A DNA stretch of 64,000 nucleotides from Desulfocurvibacter africanus subsp. africanus DSM 2603 (GTDB lineage: Bacteria; Desulfobacterota; Desulfovibrionia; Desulfovibrionales; Desulfovibrionaceae). Below are positions 13,850 through 55,710 of the stretch, piece by piece. A program made the position numbers and the translations under genes. A model generated the notes under the pieces. It worked only from the letters and a program-made list of their open reading frames with translations, was not told the origin of the DNA and made no database searches. The number at the start of each line of letters is the position of its first letter. The first letter of the stretch is position 1. The stretch is from contig NZ_AULZ01000001.1 of assembly GCF_000422545.1 (NCBI RefSeq), forward strand, positions 310,001-374,000. Reading direction: 5' to 3'.

Positions 13850-14665
13850 TCAGGCGCCCATTTTTTTGGCTTGGTCCAGCAGCCGGGGAATCTCGCGCGC
13901 CTCGGGCAGGTTGCGCCGGTACTTGGCGGGCATGAGCGAACCCAAAAGTTCGGGATTGCTGCGCGCGGGGATGAAGGCCGCCGAGTAATAAGCGCGCCAG
14001 AGGTCCTCAAGTCCGTCAGGCGTCTCCGGGGGCTTGCACGTGCCCGGCCCGAAACGCAGGCCTTGAGTGTCGGACCACACGCTGCGCCGGGGCGTAAGGA
14101 TGGCCCAGGGCGTCTGGCCGAACCGGCGGGCGAAGAACGGCGCCACGTCCTCCACGATATGGTGCTCAGGCTCGTACCAGGCCAGGTAGACCTGATTCAG
14201 GCTGTTCTGCTCATCGCTCCGGCCATCGTTCTGGCCATCGCCCTGCCCCCTGCCCTGAACCACTTGGCGGAAGCGCGTGAAGCCCTGCATGCGGTGCATA
14301 TCCCGGAACACAGCCCTGGCCATGTCGCGGGCCAGGCGCATCACTGGATCCGACAGGTCGAGAAGCAGGCCGGGTTGGTCGCGGGTAATGCGCCACAGCA
14401 GCCCATACAGCAGGCCGAAGCGGCGCGGATCGCTGTGCAGGATGGTCAGCCGGGCGAGATCGAGAAAGGCCCGTGGAACGCGAATCTCCTTGTGACCAGG
14501 CCTGGGCTTGGGCGGAGCCGGCTGTTCCGTGGACAGCAGACCCTGCTCCGGTTCGCCCAGGCCCCACTCGACGAAGTCCGGCGGAATGGCCGCGGCCCGC
14601 AGGGATCGGGCATGGGCGCGCCAGCCCTCGAAATCGGTCTCATGGGCCAGGATGATGCTACGCAT
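13850..14665 (-). CDS. Radical-SAM-linked DNA metabolism protein (TIGR03915/DUF4130 type)
   Basis: 271-residue protein beginning MRSIILAHETDFEGWR, which matches the family of probable DNA metabolism proteins that sit beside a radical-SAM protein and, in some genomes, are fused to uracil-DNA glycosylase. The C-terminal half has YEPEHHIVEDVAPFFARRFG and IPARSNPELLGSLMPAKYR. The biochemical activity is not known to me. Start ATG at 14665 overlaps the end of the radical-SAM gene by eight bases, so the two are translationally coupled. A Gly/Asp/Gln-rich linker near residues 150-160 is unusual. Confidence 0.8.
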   Translation of the reverse strand: MRSIILAHETDFEGWRAHARSLRAAAIPPDFVEWGLGEPEQGLLSTEQPAPPKPRPGHKEIRVPRAFLDLARLTILHSDPRRFGLLYGLLWRITRDQPGLLLDLSDPVMRLARDMARAVFRDMHRMQGFTRFRQVVQGRGQGDGQNDGRSDEQNSLNQVYLAWYEPEHHIVEDVAPFFARRFGQTPWAILTPRRSVWSDTQGLRFGPGTCKPPETPDGLEDLWRAYYSAAFIPARSNPELLGSLMPAKYRRNLPEAREIPRLLDQAKKMGA

Positions 14666-15893
14666 ACTCGCTCCTCTCCGACTGGTCGAACAAGGACAGC
14701 TGCACCGGCGGGGGCAGGAAGCGCCGGCGCAGGCCTGGATCATCCAGGTCACGCGGAAGATGGTCAGCCAGGCAGACGAACGGCAGCACACGGCTCAGGG
14801 GCACACGCAGGCGGGACATGTCGCTGCTGCGCAAGCTGCGTTGGCGGCGCGCATCCAGGATGCGCTCCACGCTACGCACGCCCAGACCAGGTACGCGCAG
14901 CAACTCGGCGCGGCCGGCGCGATTCACGTCCACGGGGAAACGTTCGCGATGGGCCAGAGCCCAAGCCAGCTTGGGGTCCAGGTGCGGGTCGAGCATGCCT
15001 TCGCGCGCGCCGGTCAAGATTTCCTCCACGCCGAAACCGTAGAAGCGCATGAGCCAGTCGGCCTGGTAGAGCCGGTGCTCGCGCACCAGCGGCGGCGGGC
15101 CGGAGGGCAGCCAGGAGTCCGGGACCACGGGCATGAAGGCCGAGTAATAGACGCGCTTGAGCCCATAGGACTGGTACAGCCCGTCGCTGGCGCGCAGGAT
15201 GGTTGCGTCGTCGCCGCGGTCCGCGCCAACAATCATCTGCGTGCCCTGGCCGCCGGGAGCGAAGCGCGGAGCACGCGGCTCGGCCCTGGATTCGGCGATG
15301 GCCTCGGCCATGCGGCCCATGGCCGCGTGCACGGGCGCCAGGCTCTTATCGGGAGCCAATCGACGCAGGCCGTCCTCGGTGGGCAGCTCCACGTTGGCCG
15401 ACAGGCGGTCGGCGTACAGCCCGGCCAGGGCCACCAGTCGCGGATCACAGCCGGCGATTACCTTCAGATGGATGTAGCCGTAGAATCCGTGCTCCCTCCG
15501 CAAAGACCGCACCACGCGCAGCATGCGCTCCATGGTGGCGTCCGGGCTGCCGGAGATGCCGGAGCTGAGGAACAGTCCCTCGATGTAGTTGCGGCGATAG
15601 AACTCGATGGTCAGCCCGGCCAGCTCGTTCGGGGTAAAGGCGGTGCGCGGCGTGTCGTTGGAAGCGCGGTTGACGCAGTAGCTGCAGTCATAGACGCAGT
15701 GGTTGGTGAGCAGGACCTTGAGCAGGGAGATGCAGCGCCCGTCGGGCGTAAAGCTGTGGCATACACCCAGCGGAGCCGTTGCACCCAGGCCGCTCGAACC
15801 GGAAGACGCACGCGGTGATGCGCCGCTGGATGCACACGAAGCGTCGTATTTTGCCGCATCGGCCAGGATGGACAGTTTTTGCCGCAGCTCCAT
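14658..15893 (-). CDS. Radical SAM protein linked to DNA modification/repair (TIGR03916 type)
   Basis: 411-residue radical-SAM protein with the cluster motif NHCVYDCSYC (C-X3-C-X2-C) near residue 66 and a C-terminal helix-hairpin-helix region (LRVPGLGVRSVERIL) of DNA-binding type. These are features of the putative DNA modification/repair radical-SAM family. It pairs with the downstream TIGR03915-type gene. The start at 15893 is chosen because homologues begin near ELRQKLSILADAAKYD; an ATG at 15923 or TTG at 15929 would add a few residues. No clear ribosome binding site precedes any of them. The reaction catalysed is unknown. Confidence 0.85.
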   Translation of the reverse strand: MELRQKLSILADAAKYDASCASSGASPRASSGSSGLGATAPLGVCHSFTPDGRCISLLKVLLTNHCVYDCSYCVNRASNDTPRTAFTPNELAGLTIEFYRRNYIEGLFLSSGISGSPDATMERMLRVVRSLRREHGFYGYIHLKVIAGCDPRLVALAGLYADRLSANVELPTEDGLRRLAPDKSLAPVHAAMGRMAEAIAESRAEPRAPRFAPGGQGTQMIVGADRGDDATILRASDGLYQSYGLKRVYYSAFMPVVPDSWLPSGPPPLVREHRLYQADWLMRFYGFGVEEILTGAREGMLDPHLDPKLAWALAHRERFPVDVNRAGRAELLRVPGLGVRSVERILDARRQRSLRSSDMSRLRVPLSRVLPFVCLADHLPRDLDDPGLRRRFLPPPVQLSLFDQSERSEYA

Positions 15894-16368: not shown

Positions 16369-16736
16369 AGAGCTGTACCCTTTCCTCACGGCCTCCTGTC
16401 GCCCTTTACCGTTGGGATATGGAAGGGCGCGGAATGTGCATGGCATCGGAATACGCTCGACCGGCATGTTTCCGGGCTTCGCCGCATGCTAAGGCCGCGG
16501 AATGACGTCAGCAGTATGCAGGCATGTTTGCGCCGTCATGCGCTTGGCTTTTTCACGTAACGCGCAGAAGCCGCCATCATGTGGGCATTCCACGGACGCT
16601 GATCGTGCAGCAATGCTCGCGGCCAAAGCCTTGCCGTCGCCAATGCTTTGCGCTTGGCCAAGGCCTGGGCCATGCAGCACAGTCCCGGGTCGCCAGGGGG
16701 AAAGAGCTAGCTCCAACAGGATTTTCAGGAACCGGA
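16369..16736. other. Intergenic stretch, no gene recognised
   Basis: About 370 bases between the Dabb gene and the first HD-GYP gene. I see no convincing ORF, hairpin or promoter core. Confidence 0.5.
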
Positions 16737-17798
16737 ATGAGACGATCCTCGCGTAGTGAAGCCCGAGCCAGGGGGCCGGCACGCCGAGCCGAACCGGCCG
16801 CCAAAGCTCCGACTGCCGCCGCAAGCTACCGGTACTTTCCGGTTACGCCGCTGCTGCTCTTTTCCGATACACGCACCGAGTTCCGGGTCTATCTCAGGCA
16901 GGGCGAGCAGTACGTGCTCTATACCAAGGAGCAGGATCACTTCACGGACAAGCACCGGGAGATGCTGCACAAGCAGGGCATCACCAAGGTTTTCGTCAAC
17001 TCCGAGCAGAAGTACCTCTTCGACAAGCACGTTGAGCAGAACCTCGCGGCCATCCTGGAGATGGACGCGCTGCCCTTGGAAGACCGCGCCGATTTGCTCT
17101 ACTCCACCGCGCAGTTCGTCATGAAGAACGTCTTCGAGTTCCGTCTGCCGGACCGTCTCAATGCCCCGACTTTCAAGCGCTTGGTGGACCTGGTTACCGC
17201 ATCGGTGCGTTACCTGGACAAGCCCGGCGCTTTCAAGAAACTGTCGGCGTACATCTCGCATAATTACGCGGTCTGGTCGCACTGCGTGCAGGTCTTCTGG
17301 TACTCCATGAGCGTGCTCAAGACCTTCAAGGTTGCCGAGGGCACGCTGGTCAAATGCGGCCTGGGCGCCATTCTGCACGATATCGGCAAGAGCAAGATAT
17401 CCCGCGACATCCTGGCCAAGGGCGAAAAGCTCACGGACGATGAGTGGGTGGAGATGCGCAAGCACCCGTTCTACGGCATGGCCCAGTGCGTGGCCGTGCC
17501 GATCCCCCACGAAGCGGCCAAATGCATCATGTTCCACCATGAACGCATGGACGGCCGCGGCTACGCCTATGGAATGCAGGGCGAGCTCATACCCATGTAC
17601 GTGCGCGTGGTCAGCGCCTGCGACGCCTTCGACGCCTTGACCTGCGACCGCGCCTACGGCAAGGCCGTATCCGGGGCCGAGGCCCTGCGCGTGATGAACG
17701 AGGATATGCAGGGCGCCTTCGACCCCGAGGTGCTCAAGCGGCTAGAGGCCGTGGCCAAGGGCCTGGGGCTGGTGCAGGACGAAGTCACACAAGCCTGA
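16737..17798 (+). CDS. HD-GYP domain protein (copy 1, degenerate GYP)
   Basis: 353-residue protein with an N-terminal domain (about residues 28-130, LLLFSDTRTEFRVYLRQG) and a C-terminal HD-GYP domain. HD-GYP proteins hydrolyse c-di-GMP. LHDIGKSKI supplies the HD metal pair and FHHERMDGRGYAYG the HHExxDGxGYP motif, but the P is replaced (GYA). DRAY replaces the common DRPY. Start ATG at 16737 with AGGA upstream. A paralogue lies at 20066, separated by thiL and a TrmO-aldolase gene. The Arg-rich first 30 residues are not in the paralogue. Activity is therefore uncertain. Confidence 0.85.
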   Translation: MRRSSRSEARARGPARRAEPAAKAPTAAASYRYFPVTPLLLFSDTRTEFRVYLRQGEQYVLYTKEQDHFTDKHREMLHKQGITKVFVNSEQKYLFDKHVEQNLAAILEMDALPLEDRADLLYSTAQFVMKNVFEFRLPDRLNAPTFKRLVDLVTASVRYLDKPGAFKKLSAYISHNYAVWSHCVQVFWYSMSVLKTFKVAEGTLVKCGLGAILHDIGKSKISRDILAKGEKLTDDEWVEMRKHPFYGMAQCVAVPIPHEAAKCIMFHHERMDGRGYAYGMQGELIPMYVRVVSACDAFDALTCDRAYGKAVSGAEALRVMNEDMQGAFDPEVLKRLEAVAKGLGLVQDEVTQA

Positions 17799-17864: not shown

Positions 17865-18881
17865 ATGCATGCCGGAGGATTGGTGGCCCTACGCTCTGAA
17901 CAGGATTTCCTCGCACTTATCGACTGCTACTTCCCGCCTTCCGGGCCGCCCACAGGTCGGCAGGCAGGCCTTGTCCGGCCCGAGCACGTACTCCTTGGCC
18001 GTGGAGACGACTGCGCCGTGTTGCGTTGTCCCGGCCAGATATGCATGTCCGCGGATCTGTTCCTGGAGAACGTGCACTTCCGGCGCTCCTATTTCCTGCC
18101 CGAAGACGTCGGCTACAAGGCCCTGGCCGTGAACGTGAGCGACATCTCGGCCATGGGCGCGCGCCCTTTGGGTTTCTGCCTGCAGCTCTTCGGCCCTTCC
18201 GACGTGCCCCAGGAATGGTGGGAGGGATTGTTCGCCGGCATGGCCGGCCTGGCCGATTCCTTAAACCTGCCGCTGGTTGGTGGCGACCTGAGCCGCGGAC
18301 AGAACATCGGCTTGGCCCTGACCGTTTGGGGCGAGGCCGTGGAAGACGGACGCTTCCTGTCCCGCCAAACTGCCAGACCGGGAGACCATCTATTTCTCAT
18401 GGGCGAGGTCGGGCTGGCCAGGGCCGGGCTCATGGCCCTGGAAAACGCAGGGCGGCAGGCCTGTCGCGATCTGCCGCGCGCCACGAGCGCCCATCTCCAG
18501 CCTGTGCTGCATGTGGAACAGGCCATGCATCTAGGAAAGCTGGACTTCGTGCGCGGGCTTATGGACGTATCCGACGGGCTGGCCATGGACCTGCCTCGCT
18601 TCCTGCCATGCGGCCTGGGCGCGGACCTTGATCCGCAAGCCGTGGATATCGATCCCGAAGTCGTGGATTACGCGACGCGTCTTTCGGAAGACCCGCTGCT
18701 CTTCGCCCTGGCGGGAGGAGAGGACTACGCCCTGCTGGGCGTGGCGGCGCCCGAGGCATCCGGAGAACTGACCCGAGCCGTGCCGGACGCGCGCGTCATC
18801 GGTCGCGTGGTTGAGAGGCCCGGCCTGTTCCTGGCCGGCAGACCGGCGCAGATCGCGGGGTTTGACCACTTTACCGGCTAG
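17865..18881 (+). CDS. thiL: Thiamine-monophosphate kinase
   Basis: 338-residue ThiL, which phosphorylates thiamine monophosphate to the diphosphate coenzyme. LLGRGDDCAVL, the ADLFLENVHF strand, the VNVSDISAMGARPLG motif and VGGDLSRG glycine-rich region are all diagnostic of the PurM/ThiL fold. The ATG at 17865 lacks a Shine-Dalgarno. A GTG at 17883 (product starting VALRSEQDF) has GGAGG four bases upstream, so the true start may be there. Flanked by unrelated genes; no TPP riboswitch is seen upstream. Confidence 0.92.
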   Translation: MHAGGLVALRSEQDFLALIDCYFPPSGPPTGRQAGLVRPEHVLLGRGDDCAVLRCPGQICMSADLFLENVHFRRSYFLPEDVGYKALAVNVSDISAMGARPLGFCLQLFGPSDVPQEWWEGLFAGMAGLADSLNLPLVGGDLSRGQNIGLALTVWGEAVEDGRFLSRQTARPGDHLFLMGEVGLARAGLMALENAGRQACRDLPRATSAHLQPVLHVEQAMHLGKLDFVRGLMDVSDGLAMDLPRFLPCGLGADLDPQAVDIDPEVVDYATRLSEDPLLFALAGGEDYALLGVAAPEASGELTRAVPDARVIGRVVERPGLFLAGRPAQIAGFDHFTG

Positions 18882-19041
18882 GGCGACTCGGCAATGAATC
18901 GCGGTGGATATCTTAGGTCTTTTGGGGACACGGCGGTCTTTACCCGGACAAAGATTCGCGTTGAGTTCTTCCGAGCACTTATGCAAGCAACCATAGGTAT
19001 GACATGACGCCGCGCGGGCACCGAAGCAAGGAAGTGATGTG

Positions 19042-20037
19042 ATGCCTGAAGAGAGCCTGACCATCATCGGATATGTCCGCTCCTCCCTACAGCGCAGGAC
19101 CGACGCGCCCAAACAGGGCTTCGAGGGCGGCGTACAGGCCTGCGTGGAGTTGGAGCCGGAGTTCACGGCCGGCTTGGACGGCGTGCGGCCCGGACAGGAT
19201 CTGCTGCTGTTCACCTGGCTGCACAAGGCCCGACGGGACGCGCTCCAGAGCCATCCGCGCGGCGACACCTCCAAGCCCATAGCCGGCGTGTTCAGCTTGC
19301 GCTCGCCCCACAGGCCCAACCCTGTCGGCATGCATCGCGTGCGCGTGCTGGCCCTTGACGGCTCGCGCCTGACCGTCGCGCCCCTGGAAGCCATCGACGG
19401 CACGCCCGTGGTGGACATCAAGCCCGTGCTCGACGCCGAGGGCAGACCCGCCCTACCCGACGCACCGAGCTTGCCCGAAGCCGATGCCGCGATCCTGCGC
19501 GAGGCTGGCGAGCGGGCCTGGGCCAGGGGCTTGGTCAGCGGCTTCAACGGCAACCTGAGCCTGCGGCGCGACAAAACCATGCTCATCACGGCCTCGGGTT
19601 GCGCCAAAGGCCGCTTGACCCAGGCCGACATCGTTCACGTGCGCATCGCCGACGGAACGACACTCCAGGGCGGGCCGTGCTCCAGCGAAACGCCCATGCA
19701 TCTGGCCGTATACCGCGCAGTGCCCGGAGCCCTGGCCATTGTGCACCTGCACCCGCGCAATCTGCTGGCCCTGAGCCTGATGGTCAGCGAGGACCGGCTG
19801 TTGGCCCTGCCGCTTTACGAGGCCTCGGCGTATCGACGCGAATTGGCTTTCGTTCCGGCCCTGAATCCCGGCAGCCAGGAATTGGCCCAGGCCGTGGCCG
19901 CGGCCTTGGTCGAGCGCAAGGCCGTATTCATGCACGGCCACGGTTTGACATGCCGAGGGCGGGATGTGTTTTCCGCTCTGCACCTGGCCGAGGAACTGGA
20001 AGGGCTGGCCACCATTCAATTGCTAACCTTGCGGTGA
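19042..20037 (+). CDS. Fusion: TrmO (TsaA) tRNA methyltransferase domain plus class II aldolase/adducin domain
   Basis: 331 residues in two domains. Residues 1-135 are a TrmO/TsaA domain, which methylates N6 of t6A37 in tRNA, with LFTWLHKARRD, SPHRPNPVGMHRVRV and DGTPVVDIKPV. Residues 145-331 are a class II aldolase: FNGNLSLR, ITASGCAKG, the acid SSE (214-216) and zinc histidines in HLHP (235, 237), plus HGHG near residue 305, as in fuculose-phosphate aldolase. All these motifs look intact. The ATG at 19042 has AGGA eight bases upstream. A separate stand-alone TrmO is at 39673-40173. The substrate of the aldolase half is unknown. Confidence 0.85.
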   Translation: MPEESLTIIGYVRSSLQRRTDAPKQGFEGGVQACVELEPEFTAGLDGVRPGQDLLLFTWLHKARRDALQSHPRGDTSKPIAGVFSLRSPHRPNPVGMHRVRVLALDGSRLTVAPLEAIDGTPVVDIKPVLDAEGRPALPDAPSLPEADAAILREAGERAWARGLVSGFNGNLSLRRDKTMLITASGCAKGRLTQADIVHVRIADGTTLQGGPCSSETPMHLAVYRAVPGALAIVHLHPRNLLALSLMVSEDRLLALPLYEASAYRRELAFVPALNPGSQELAQAVAAALVERKAVFMHGHGLTCRGRDVFSALHLAEELEGLATIQLLTLR

Positions 20038-20065: not shown

Positions 20066-21064
20066 GTGTTGTACGCGCCGAACAGAGCCCCTTCCGCCAA
20101 GGAACCCAAGCCGCTCTTCTTTCCCGTATCCCCATTTCTGCTTTTTTCAGGCATTCAGGCCACATTCCGGGTCTACCTGCGCCAGAACGGCAAGTACGTG
20201 CTCTATACGCGCGAGGAAGACCGCCTCCAGGATACCCACCGGCAGAAGCTCTTCGATATGGGCGTACGCTCGGTTTACGTGCTCAGCGAGCAGAAAGAGG
20301 CCTACGAGAGCTACCTCGAAGAACACCTGGACGCCTTCCTGGACAATGAGACCATACCGAGCGAACAGCGCGCCGAGACCTTCCACAGCTTGTCCTCGGG
20401 CATCGTGGAGGAATTCTTCGAGCATCGCCTGCCCACGAACGCCGGCGGCCCCATCTACGATCGGGTACAAAAGCTGGTGCGCTCCAGCGTGCGCTTCCTG
20501 TCCAAGAGCGATTCGTTGCGGGATGTCTCCCGTCTGATCACGCACACGTACAAGACCTACGCCCATTGCCTGCACGTATTCATTTACGCCACGGCCATCT
20601 ACAGCACCATGAGCGGCATGGACGAGGAAGCCCTGGTTCGCAACGGCCTTGGCGCCCTGCTGCACGATATCGGCAAGACGCGCATCGACAAAGCCGTGCT
20701 GGACAAGCCGGGTAAGCTCACGGACGCGGAATGGGCCGGCATGCGCCAACATCCCATGCATGGCGCGGCCATCTGCTCGAACCTGCCTTTGGCTGGCGAC
20801 ACCATCAACTGCATCCTTTTTCATCATGAGCGCTTCGACGGCGGCGGCTACCCCGCGGGGCTCGTCGGCGAGGCCATTCCCTTGGCCGTGCGCGTGGTGA
20901 CGGTCTGCGACGTATATGACGCCCTGACTTCGGACCGCGCCTACGCCCCGGCCGTCACGCCTTTCGAAGCCCTGTCCATCATGCGTGATCAGATGGCCGA
21001 CCATTTCGACATGGAGATTTACCGCAGGCTCGTGCTGGTGCTGAGCGGGGCCAAAGTCGTCTGA
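20066..21064 (+). CDS. HD-GYP domain protein (copy 2)
   Basis: 332-residue paralogue of the protein at 16737, with the same N-terminal domain (LLFSGIQATFRVYLRQNGKYVLYTRE.., residues 24-120) and a C-terminal HD-GYP. LHDIGKTRI gives the HD pair and FHHERFDGGGYPAG a full HHExxDGxGYP motif, so it should be a competent c-di-GMP phosphodiesterase. Start is a GTG at 20066 with GAGGAA upstream. The N-terminal domain has no transmembrane segment, so it is likely cytosolic. Together with copy 1 it brackets thiL and the TrmO-aldolase gene. Confidence 0.9.
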   Translation: MLYAPNRAPSAKEPKPLFFPVSPFLLFSGIQATFRVYLRQNGKYVLYTREEDRLQDTHRQKLFDMGVRSVYVLSEQKEAYESYLEEHLDAFLDNETIPSEQRAETFHSLSSGIVEEFFEHRLPTNAGGPIYDRVQKLVRSSVRFLSKSDSLRDVSRLITHTYKTYAHCLHVFIYATAIYSTMSGMDEEALVRNGLGALLHDIGKTRIDKAVLDKPGKLTDAEWAGMRQHPMHGAAICSNLPLAGDTINCILFHHERFDGGGYPAGLVGEAIPLAVRVVTVCDVYDALTSDRAYAPAVTPFEALSIMRDQMADHFDMEIYRRLVLVLSGAKVV

Positions 21065-32066: not shown

Positions 32067-33662
32067 ATGACCGTGAAGCTCGTCATCGCCCTCATCTATT
32101 TGGGCGTGGTTTTTTACCTCGGCTACGTGGGCTGGAAGCACACGCGCGAGGCCGCGGACTACATGCTGGCCGGACGGCGCATGAACCCGTTCATCATGGC
32201 CATGTCCTACGGGGCCACGTTCATCTCCACCTCGGCCATCGTGGGCTTCGGCGGCGTGGCCTCGCTGTTCGGCTTTCCGCTGCTGTGGCTGACCTTCGCC
32301 AACATTTTCGTGGGCATCTTCATCGCCATGGTCTTCTTCGGCCGGCGCACGCGGCGCATGGGCGTGGCCCTGGACAGTCACACCTTCCCCGAGCTCCTGG
32401 GCCGGCGCTTCAAGAGCCGCTTCATCCAGGGCTTCGCCGGGCTGGTCATCTTCCTGTTCATCCCGGTCTACGCCGCGGCCGTGCTCATCGGCATCTCGCG
32501 CATGATCGAGGTCTCGCTCGGCATCCCCTACGCGGCCGCGCTCATCGGCTTCACGCTCATTCTGGCCGTGTACGTGGTCACGGGCGGCATGAAGGCGGTC
32601 ATGTACACCGACGCCTTCCAGGGCGGCATCATGGTCGTCATGATGCTCATCCTGGTGGCCCACACCTACTCCCTGCTGGGCGGCGTCGTCCCGGCCCACC
32701 AGGCCCTGACGGACATGGCCGCGCTCATGCCCGAGAAACTACGCGCGGGCGGGCTGGAAGGCTGGACCCAGGGCACGCGCTTTGGCACTCCGCTATGGCT
32801 GACCATCTACACGACGATCGTCTTCGGCGTGGGCGTTGGCGTACTGGCCCAGCCCCAGTTGGCCGTGCGCTACATGACCGTATCCTCGGACCGCCAGCTC
32901 AACCGGGCCGTGCTCTACGGCGGCGTGTTCATCCTGCTCATGACCGGCGTGGCCTTCGTAGTGGGTGCGTTGTCCAACGTGATCTTCCACCAGACGACCG
33001 GCAAGCTCGCCATCGCCGTGGCCGGCGGCAATGTGGACGTGGTCATACCGACCTACATCGAGACCATCATGCCGGCCTGGTTCTCCACGCTCTTCCTCAT
33101 GGCCATGCTCGCCGCGGCCATGTCCACCCTGTCCTCCCAGTACCACGCGGGCGGCACTTCCCTTGGCCGCGACCTGCTGGAAAAGGGCCTTGGGCTCGGC
33201 AAGCAGGAGTCCATCAAGGGCACCCAGTGGGGCGTCGTGGTGACCATCGCCATGGGCCTGGTGTGGGCGCTGTTCCTGCCCGAGTCGGTCATCGCCAAGG
33301 CCACGGCTTTCTTCTTCGGCCTGTGCGCCGCGACGTTTCTGCCGGTCTACTTCCTTGGCCTCTACTGGAAGCGCATGAGCCGCACGGCGGCCGTGGCCTC
33401 CATGCTGGGCGGCTTCGGCTTCTCCATGTTCTGGCTGCTGTTCGTCCATGAAGCCGAGGCCAAGGTCATCGGCCTGTGCCAGATCCTGTTCGGCAAGGCC
33501 ACCCTGGTCGCCGACGCAACCAAGGGCTCCTGGGTCTTCCTGCTGCAGTGGCTGGACCCGAACATCGTGGCCCTGCCCTTCTCCCTGCTCCTGGCCGTGG
33601 CCGTGGCGCTCGTCACGAGGCACGACGCGGAGCACGCCGAGTACTGCTGGCGGAATTACTAA
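32067..33662 (+). CDS. SSS-family sodium:solute symporter
   Basis: 531-residue membrane protein with about 13-14 helices of the solute:sodium symporter family. It starts in KLVIALIYLGVVFYLGYVGW and contains GRRMNPFIMAMSYGATFISTSA (cut here to 20: MNPFIMAMSYGATFISTSA), the classic unwound helix 1, plus helix 6 and 7 segments AQPQLAVRYMT. Substrate (acetate, pyruvate, proline, etc.) is not known. Start ATG at 32067 with AGGACGG upstream. An internally deleted, partly near-identical copy is at 55381-55710. Confidence 0.92.
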   Translation: MTVKLVIALIYLGVVFYLGYVGWKHTREAADYMLAGRRMNPFIMAMSYGATFISTSAIVGFGGVASLFGFPLLWLTFANIFVGIFIAMVFFGRRTRRMGVALDSHTFPELLGRRFKSRFIQGFAGLVIFLFIPVYAAAVLIGISRMIEVSLGIPYAAALIGFTLILAVYVVTGGMKAVMYTDAFQGGIMVVMMLILVAHTYSLLGGVVPAHQALTDMAALMPEKLRAGGLEGWTQGTRFGTPLWLTIYTTIVFGVGVGVLAQPQLAVRYMTVSSDRQLNRAVLYGGVFILLMTGVAFVVGALSNVIFHQTTGKLAIAVAGGNVDVVIPTYIETIMPAWFSTLFLMAMLAAAMSTLSSQYHAGGTSLGRDLLEKGLGLGKQESIKGTQWGVVVTIAMGLVWALFLPESVIAKATAFFFGLCAATFLPVYFLGLYWKRMSRTAAVASMLGGFGFSMFWLLFVHEAEAKVIGLCQILFGKATLVADATKGSWVFLLQWLDPNIVALPFSLLLAVAVALVTRHDAEHAEYCWRNY

Positions 33663-39672: not shown

Positions 39673-40173
39673 TCAATCCGCAGCCCGAGACTTGGCGAAG
39701 CGATCGTCCGAGCGGGTCGCGCCTACATCGGCCTGGCTCTTCTCGGCCCAGCCCGCGCGGGCCTCAGGCACGGCATCGAAAGCCGGCATATAGGGTTTGA
39801 TGTCCAGGAGCGGCGTGCCATCGAGCACGTCCACGCCTGCAATGCGCAGCACGTTGCCGGATACGCCCAGTACGCGCACCACGGACAGGCCTATGGGATT
39901 GGGCCGCCTCGGGGCGCGCGTGGAAAACAAGCCGCGCGGCGTATTGTCCAAAAACGGCGTAACAGTAAGCGCATAGCCCTGGCTGCCGTGGAAATGATAG
40001 ATCAGATAGGCGTGCGAGAAGCCTTCCAGATCGGCCAGCCCCTGCGCGTACTGCGGGTCGAGCACGGCTTGTCCCTCGGCGTCCCTGGCGCCGGCGGGCT
40101 GGATGGGCATGCCTTCCAGGCTGGTCCAGGGCGAGTGCACGATACCGATGGGCCGCAGAATTAATTCGTTCAT
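39673..40173 (-). CDS. trmO: tRNA (N6-threonylcarbamoyladenosine37-N6)-methyltransferase TrmO
   Basis: 166-residue stand-alone TrmO/TsaA. PIGIVHSP, SHAYLIYHFH, RAPRRPNPIGLSVVRV and DGTPLLDIKPY are diagnostic. It methylates N6 of t6A at position 37 of tRNAs. A second, fused TrmO domain is at 19042-20037. The ATG at 40173 overlaps the stop of the preceding gene by four bases. Confidence 0.92.
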   Translation of the reverse strand: MNELILRPIGIVHSPWTSLEGMPIQPAGARDAEGQAVLDPQYAQGLADLEGFSHAYLIYHFHGSQGYALTVTPFLDNTPRGLFSTRAPRRPNPIGLSVVRVLGVSGNVLRIAGVDVLDGTPLLDIKPYMPAFDAVPEARAGWAEKSQADVGATRSDDRFAKSRAAD

Positions 40174-40658
40174 TTCTCTCCGTTCTCCTTGCGCACGCCG
40201 ATCTTATCCAGCCATGATTCGCTGAAGCCCATGGAGATGGACACTTCCATGCCGCCCTCCAGGGAATAGTTCTTGAGCGACTGGATAAACTCGCCCGTGG
40301 CATTGTTGATAAGCTGTATGGCGTAGCGGTCGGGATTCGTCTTGACCCGTATGAGCTTGACCTGCGTGCCCGGGTGGCAGTGCTTTTCCTTGAGCGAGTA
40401 CTCCTGCGGCCCGCCCTCCCATTTGGGAGCCTGATTCTCGGCCTCCACCAGGCCGGCCTTGAGCTCGATCATGCGCACCAGGTGGAAGACCTCCTCCGAA
40501 ACCCTGCGCCGCTCCTCGGGCTCCATGGCCGCCAGAACTTCTGGAACCGCAAGTTCCTTCCAACGGTCCGCGGCGTCCCACAATATATGTTCCATGAAAA
40601 CCCTTGCAAAATCGCGGGGCGACAGCTCGCCGCCCTTGCCGAAAGGATGGCCGATCAT
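40170..40658 (-). CDS. Hypothetical protein coupled to trmO
   Basis: 162-residue soluble protein of unknown function. The start, GKGGELSPRDFARVFMEHIL, is followed by an alpha-helical part, then a beta-rich C-terminal half (VKLIRVKTNPDRYAIQLINN) with GGMEVSISMGF. ATG at 40658 has GGAG..GGCGAG upstream and its end overlaps trmO (ATGA), so the two are translated together. No metal or nucleotide motif. Confidence 0.65.
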   Translation of the reverse strand: MIGHPFGKGGELSPRDFARVFMEHILWDAADRWKELAVPEVLAAMEPEERRRVSEEVFHLVRMIELKAGLVEAENQAPKWEGGPQEYSLKEKHCHPGTQVKLIRVKTNPDRYAIQLINNATGEFIQSLKNYSLEGGMEVSISMGFSESWLDKIGVRKENGEK

Positions 40659-55380: not shown

Positions 55381-55710
55381 GTGAAGCTGTTTGTTTCGCT
55401 GGCTTACTTGGGCGTGGTTTTTTACCTCGGCTACGTGGGCTGGAAGCACACGCGCGAGGCCGCGGACTACATGCTGGGCGGCTTCGGCTTCTCCATGTTC
55501 TGGCTGCTGTTCGTGTTCGAGTCGGTGGCCAAGGCCATCGGCCTGTGCCAGATCCTGTTCGTGGTCGCCGACGCAACCAAGGGTTCCTGGGTCTTCCTGC
55601 TGCATTGGCTGGACCCGAACATAGTGGCCCTGCCGCTATCCCTGCTCCTGGCCGTGCTCGCAACCCTGGCCACACGCCACGACGCCGAGCACTGCTGGCG
55701 GAATTACTGA
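55381..55710 (+). pseudogene. Internally deleted copy of the SSS symporter
   Basis: Open frame of 109 codons from a GTG. Codons 1-32 match residues 3-34 of the symporter at 32067 (nearly identical DNA over about 70 bases), then jump to residue 446 and continue to the same C-terminus. About 410 residues are missing. The junction lies at CATGCTGG, a sequence present at both ends of the deletion. Further losses are multiples of three. The parent start ATG is ATA here, so only the GTG two codons later remains. No clear ribosome binding site. It may be a dead copy. Confidence 0.85.

Follow-up and report, generated by a model that had tools for sequence, protein, structure and literature searches.

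According to the excerpts of three reports (PMC6079011, PMC10986504, PMC6302742), the DHAP shunts convert 5′-deoxyadenosine or MTA to DHAP and an aldehyde, using either a nucleosidase and a kinase or MtnP, followed by MtnA and a class II aldolase. A route via a deaminase, a phosphorylase and MtnA is described for Methanocaldococcus (in part in PMC6302742). The second enzyme concerned here, TrmO (YaeB/TsaA) of E. coli, is the N6-methyltransferase of t6A37 in tRNA. In the excerpted description of this family (PMC4132733), the SAM-contacting residues are a Gln, an Arg, an Asp and a Lys, and a C-terminal DPRxxY domain is specific to the gamma- and beta-proteobacterial and the mammalian homologs; because of this limitation, the domain does not define the whole TrmO family.

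Both enzyme types are joined in a single open reading frame of Desulfocurvibacter africanus subsp. africanus DSM 2603, located in the window analysed here, a stretch of 64,000 nucleotides of contig NZ_AULZ01000001.1 (Table 1). Among the papers searched, none mentioned both TrmO and a class II aldolase, and the sole match for Desulfovibrio together with MtnA and aldolase was a soybean metagenome study. As a whole, we tentatively read the gene product as an ancestral two-domain protein consisting of a putative DHAP-shunt-type aldolase and a probable Glu-type TrmO methylase, which would be co-expressed rather than coupled.

Table 1. Positions of the fusion gene, its two domains and the related genes in the window.
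Feature	Position	Strand	Description
TrmO–class II aldolase fusion ORF	19042..20037	+	331 aa, ATG start, without internal stop
TrmO-family domain (SAM-dependent beta-barrel methyltransferase)	19042..19443	+	residues 1-134; PF01980, TIGR00104
Class II aldolase domain	19477..20034	+	residues 146-331; PF00596, FucA-structure alignment, predicted fold
thiL, thiamine-monophosphate kinase	17865..18881	+	TIGR01379 223.6 bits, cut-off 184.15
Stand-alone TrmO, Asp type	39673..40173	-	166 aa; TIGR00104 124.7 bits, cut-off 93.25; outside the fusion locus

The fusion gene and its surroundings

The front half of the fusion is recognised by the Pfam model PF01980 (TrmO_N; residues 22-130, 84.2 bits against a cut-off of 26.8) and by the NCBIfam model TIGR00104 for TrmO (102.4 bits, cut-off 93.25), and the back half by the Pfam model PF00596 (Aldolase_II; residues 153-327, 151.5 bits against a cut-off of 22.2). 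A GTG at position 19039 represents a possible alternative start. The initial annotation of this DNA had described an intact TrmO domain followed in the same frame by an aldolase with its acid and zinc histidines, and this description was borne out by the two Pfam domains, the motifs SPHRPNPVG (residues 88-96) and DGTPVVDIKP (residues 119-128), and the presence of Glu216, His235, His237 and His300. A predicted structural model of the fusion (mean pLDDT 87.8) matches class II aldolases, including DrdA, as well as TrmO structures; because its pTM is 0.59, the placement of the two domains relative to each other is unreliable. Annotating the protein by one of its domains alone is likely misleading.

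The thiL gene is located upstream on the same strand, separated from the fusion by 160 bases, and codes for the only ThiL over the cut-off in the genome. Both genes are bracketed by two HD-GYP-type paralogs (16524-17798 and 20066-21064, both on the plus strand), which are 44% identical over 328 amino acids. Upstream of the fusion, the minus strand at 13850-15893 codes for a radical SAM protein (TIGR03916) and its partner (TIGR03915), a putative DNA modification or repair pair. Elsewhere in the window, the plus-strand stretch at 55381-55710 resembles, by eye, a truncated copy of the start of a sodium/solute symporter gene at 32067-33662 on the same strand.

Distribution and ancestry of the fusion

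As proposed in the initial annotation, we searched for the same architecture and its neighbours in a set of 59 related genomes, including that of D. africanus itself. The full-length TrmO–aldolase architecture was present in 29 of them, which represent six families of one order, most likely the Desulfovibrionales, and thiL was a recurrent neighbour. Because the same architecture occurs in 29 relatives, chance joining or an assembly error is excluded; the same count rules out the two objections already considered in the initial annotation, a sequencing error joining two genes and an absence from all related genomes. Of these fusions, 28 were read as sequence and 27 were aligned, and one (G056) is represented by its coordinates only. 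In a scan of named genomes covering the best 80 of 573 relatives, which is no measure of the distribution outside the order, the fusion was found on contigs from Desulfohalobiaceae and Desulfovibrionaceae (L060 and L061), and a match in Desulfothermus okinawensis (L139) was located in broken frames of a draft assembly. A sample of 148 genomes from the phylum contained further sequences with about 50% identity to the aldolase half solely within the same family, namely in three genomes of a single genus, and the remaining matches showed 29-40% identity. No telling neighbours were recognised among those inspected for the best class II aldolases listed outside the order, which are likewise 29-40% identical.

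The TrmO half occurs alone in 11 and the aldolase half alone in 5 of the 59 genomes. Because the halves are separate in these 16 genomes, neither activity depends on their being fused. In an rpoB tree of 53 genomes, which was calculated by a quick method and read by eye, the fusion occurs on both sides of the root and therefore looks ancestral to the order and later split in some genomes, with a loss of the aldolase half in at least three lineages. The idea of a chance fusion that is simply kept, raised in the initial annotation, is too weak for an arrangement of this apparent age. No decayed remnants of the missing half were recognised beside the surviving half at the 16 loci, and a TrmO gene tree contained too few columns (139) for placing the split copies.

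The thiL gene shares the locus with 10 of 21 fusions (that of the window and 9 of 20 others), with 10 of the 11 TrmO halves occurring alone and with 2 of the 5 aldolase halves occurring alone; one of these five is on a contig that ends at the aldolase gene. In three more genomes that have the aldolase half alone and belong to a different genus, thiL is, as judged by eye, likewise beside or one gene away from the aldolase gene. It is often preceded by uvrD (labelled by eye), and the genes around it are tightly packed or overlapping. In-frame ThiL–aldolase (G018) and ThiL–TrmO fusions (G027) exist in addition to the TrmO–aldolase fusion, so that this single locus has given rise to several different combinations of the thiL, TrmO and aldolase genes. 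A 722-aa frame in G026 was tried as a candidate for a triple ThiL–TrmO–aldolase fusion and rejected, since its front part merely reads through thiL out of frame.

Three types of class II aldolases were distinguished in the 59 genomes. Type (a), the window type, comprises the fusion or the aldolase half alone and is present in 34 genomes. Type (b), present in 15 genomes, is a protein of about 390 amino acids with a C-terminal class II aldolase domain, whose gene adjoins that of an aldehyde:ferredoxin oxidoreductase (AOR) in 8 of the 9 genomes inspected; examples are found at L155:5022-7945 and L056:8149-11177, with an N-terminal half without family assignment. Type (c) is linked to mtnA, either in the gene order mtnA–ald–mtnP (G001) or as an in-frame fusion of MtnA with a divergent class II aldolase, followed by mtnP (G012, L164:1302-3032). 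The latter arrangement forms a compact DHAP-shunt-like unit. Because the three types are distant from each other and from known enzymes, the role of the aldolase half has to be deduced from presence or absence and from neighbours. Types (a) and (b) are both present in two genomes (G014 and G026), type (a) only in 32, type (b) only in 13 and neither in 12. This distribution yields Fisher p values of 1.2e-4 for the 59 genomes and 0.016 for the 35 genomes of the window's family, both ignoring kinship; a kinship-corrected sign test had six independent pairs on well-supported branches, too few for significance (median p 0.5). In G010 and G015, the locus order is thiL–bioB–bioY–TrmO–AOR–aldolase, with bioY labelled by eye and the aldolase being of type (b). 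The genomes G007 and G008 instead contain enzymes resembling FucA and OtnC.

The fusion is real, old and modular. It might still have arisen neutrally, with two unrelated housekeeping neighbours behind thiL being fused by the loss of a stop codon and staying fused, and with the aldolase serving another sugar phosphate. Such an origin would suit the separate halves in 16 genomes, the tight or overlapping genes around thiL with their other in-frame fusions, and the distribution signal that loses its significance after correcting for kinship. We nevertheless consider it unlikely, since the fusion has persisted across six families with all its catalytic residues intact. Moreover, another class II aldolase, of type (b), is present in 10 of the 11 genomes that retain only the TrmO half, suggesting that these aldolases occupy the same biochemical niche. 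Instead, we propose that the halves may have been joined as members of a small SAM-economy and vitamin locus that gain from being co-expressed, without one of them feeding the other.

The aldolase half and its proposed role in the disposal of SAM by-products

Asn171, Ser214, the acid residue Glu216, His235, His237 and His300 are invariant in all 27 aligned fusions, while Ser215 is not among the invariant columns. They align with Asn29, Ser71, Glu73, His92, His94 and His155 of E. coli FucA, whose numbering and roles are in part reflected in the titles of mutant structures. The fold, the metal ligands and the acid residue place the fusion in the class II aldolase/adducin superfamily (PF00596), of which it is the sole member in its own genome. 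When the back half was compared with the NCBIfam models, it remained below the cut-offs of all aldolase, decarboxylase and dehydratase models listed. Its identity as FucA was rejected because of a score of 82.7 bits against 400.25 (TIGR01086), the presence of Leu258 at the position of FucA Tyr113, and the missing C-terminal tail, with the alignment stopping at residue 185 of 215 of FucA. Rejected as well were identities as MtnB dehydratase (TIGR03328; 78.9 bits against 137.05) and as OtnC 3-oxo-tetronate-4-phosphate decarboxylase (NF043034; 95.9 bits against 250). All 27 aligned fusions also share an additional glutamate, Glu260, at a position where E. coli FucA has an Ile.

We propose that the aldolase half may cleave 5-deoxyribulose-1-phosphate and/or 5-methylthioribulose-1-phosphate to DHAP and acetaldehyde or (methylthio)acetaldehyde. 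It would thereby act last in a DHAP-shunt-like pathway that disposes of 5′-deoxyadenosine and MTA, two by-products of SAM, an assignment as a DHAP-shunt-type aldolase on which our judgement is about evenly balanced. The initial annotation had suggested tRNA- or small-nucleoside-linked carbohydrate chemistry, and the nucleoside part of this suggestion fits the proposed function. In D. africanus, the substrate would be provided by a 5′-deoxyadenosine-deaminase-like amidohydrolase, a purine nucleoside phosphorylase and MtnA. The genome contains one MtnA and one purine nucleoside phosphorylase of the inosine/guanosine type (360 bits, cut-off 218). It also codes for one amidohydrolase with a relationship to 5′-deoxyadenosine and SAH deaminase models, albeit below their cut-offs (397 bits against 522 for 5′-deoxyadenosine deaminase). 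By analogy, this putative set of enzymes resembles the route described for Methanocaldococcus. MtnN and MtnP were both absent over cut-off from the genome; in the wider set, MtnP was over cut-off in 2 of the 34 window-type genomes and MtnN in none of the 59. Because these two enzymes are nearly absent, the route needs the weaker-supported entry via deaminase and phosphorylase.

MtnA is present in 53 and a PF00596 protein in 51 of the 59 genomes, with both in 50, neither in 5, MtnA only in 3 and the aldolase only in 1 genome. For the 55 genomes with at least 80% completeness, the respective numbers are 50, 2, 3 and 0. Exactly one class II aldolase is present in 43 of the 51 genomes. Further linkages were found on plasmids: a single cluster of genes for a purine nucleoside phosphorylase, an amidohydrolase and MtnA in Ponticoccus, a class II aldolase gene close to mtnA and deoD in Pusillibacter, and, on an unannotated plasmid of Caballeronia, a run of an mtnK-like, an mtnA and an aldolase-like gene (by eye); a Klebsiella plasmid with mtnK and mtnA and no adjoining aldolase gene is a contrary case. 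In three of ten mtnA loci (L145, L148 and L151 among L144-L153), a THI4-like gene was seen by eye near mtnA, with gatB and der around (also by eye). BioB is a radical SAM enzyme producing 5′-deoxyadenosine, and we infer that the bioB gene in the locus of G010 and G015 and the AOR gene beside the aldolase fit 5′-deoxyadenosine as the source and acetaldehyde as the product of the pathway.

Several findings count against a DHAP-shunt function. MtnA occurs without any class II aldolase in G045, G049 and G053, the mtnA gene of D. africanus is on contig 14 and thus not clustered with the fusion on contig 1, and the proximity to thiL goes back to a single inherited arrangement with no obvious link to 5-deoxyribose. 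As an alternative, the back half might be no aldolase at all, and might represent an MtnB-like methylthioribulose-1-phosphate dehydratase or an OtnC-like decarboxylase. The scores of these models are near that of the aldolase model, and the invariant Glu260 and the Leu in place of FucA Tyr113 would suit such a function. However, all of these scores are far below their cut-offs, inspection by eye revealed neither otn nor mtnC/D/E-like genes near the fusion, and the dioxygenase branch following MtnB requires oxygen, which would be odd in anaerobes. We regard this alternative as improbable. If the DHAP-shunt role of the aldolase half is true, it would supply the final reaction that has been missing from the removal of radical-SAM by-products in Desulfovibrionales, with the aldolases linked to AOR or mtnA being non-orthologous replacements of the window type.

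The TrmO half and comparison with known systems

The stand-alone TrmO gene that the initial annotation had noted at position 39673 is real. Its start overlaps by four bases with a minus-strand gene at 40170-40658, for whose product of 162 amino acids NCBIfam yielded no match at 1e-10. The fused TrmO domain is 38% identical to this stand-alone TrmO across 96 residues. We compared the active sites of both proteins, as had been suggested, using an alignment to AF0241 in which Q25, R87, E116 and K127 of the fusion correspond to Q25, R92, D125 and K136 of E. coli TrmO. The Gln, Arg and Lys contacts to SAM are kept in the fused domain, whereas Glu116 replaces the SAM-contacting Asp of the stand-alone copy. 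Glu is present at this position in 27 of 28 fusions; in the exception (G016), the aligner put a Glu at position 116, but an insert makes this placement doubtful and the gap-corrected reading gives Asp. The position of Gln25 is variable among the fusions. Because 78 of 119 TrmO rows from relatives and other phyla have Glu at the SAM-contact position (41 have Asp), the Glu-type TrmO constitutes a broad subfamily. Stand-alone members are present in Actinobacteria, Acidobacteria, Bacteroidetes and others, and no common neighbours of them were seen by eye outside the order.

The initial annotation had argued that the fused domain may have a different job than the stand-alone copy. Its Glu116 indeed assigns it to another subfamily, but the fused copy is the sole PF01980 protein in 8 of the 29 fusion genomes and therefore could be an ordinary tRNA enzyme there; the other 21 contain at least one further TrmO. 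Because no other TrmO was found in these eight genomes, they provide a clean natural test of m6t6A formation by a Glu-type TrmO. A PF01980 search of the aldolase-only genomes G003, G011, G018 and G025 gave zero matches, as would be expected if the tRNA methylase is dispensable or if the function is a separate one. The DPRxxY domain, which is needed in E. coli TrmO, is absent from the translated fusion. The TrmO half would be a SAM-dependent methyltransferase that most likely, if with modest confidence, still methylates t6A37 in tRNA; the Asp-to-Glu change in the SAM site counts against a firm claim of TrmO activity.

Instead of being a tRNA enzyme, the fused domain might act as a sensor of SAM or adenosyl compounds or as a small-molecule methyltransferase working with the aldolase. 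This would agree with the Glu at the contact to the SAM amino group, the variable Gln25, the further TrmO in most fusion genomes, and the domain staying beside bioB, AOR and aldolase genes in G010 and G015. Considering that the domain passes the TIGR00104 cut-off, that the Glu subfamily is stand-alone in several phyla without a common neighbourhood, and that eight fusion genomes have no other TrmO, we find such a function quite unlikely. We give little credence to the further idea that the fused Glu-type TrmO is a SAM-dependent enzyme or sensor acting on SAM-derived nucleosides rather than tRNA, so that the bifunctional fusion couples the level of SAM or 5′-deoxyadenosine to the final aldol cleavage of a 5-deoxypentose; if true, the same would apply to the large stand-alone Glu-type subfamily that is named TrmO in several phyla.

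Returning to the proposed TrmO methylase co-expressed with a putative DHAP-shunt-type aldolase, the front half is like TrmO (YaeB/TsaA) and its short forms AF0241 (2NV4) and RPA0152 (3OKX) in its beta-barrel SAM domain, its Gln, Arg and Lys contacts and its match to TIGR00104. It is unlike E. coli TrmO in having Glu116 for Asp and the aldolase in the place of the DPRxxY domain. The back half shares the fold, the metal-binding histidines, the catalytic Glu and the phosphate-binding Ser-Ser-Glu with the class II aldolases covered by the comparison, namely FucA, the T. thermophilus protein 2FK5 and DrdA of B. thuringiensis (6BTD/6BTG); Ald2 of E. coli is a further known enzyme of this class. It differs from the known class II aldolases by Leu258, the lack of the FucA tail, the invariant Glu260, its connection to TrmO and its scores under all listed NCBIfam aldolase cut-offs. 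Compared to the DHAP shunts composed of MtnK/MtnP–MtnA–Ald2 or DrdK–DrdI–DrdA, the genome of D. africanus likewise provides MtnA, a phosphorylase and a single class II aldolase, but its aldolase gene is apart from mtnA and it codes for no MtnN or MtnP over cut-off, whereas mtnA is directly linked to an aldolase gene in some of its relatives, as in the known DHAP shunts.
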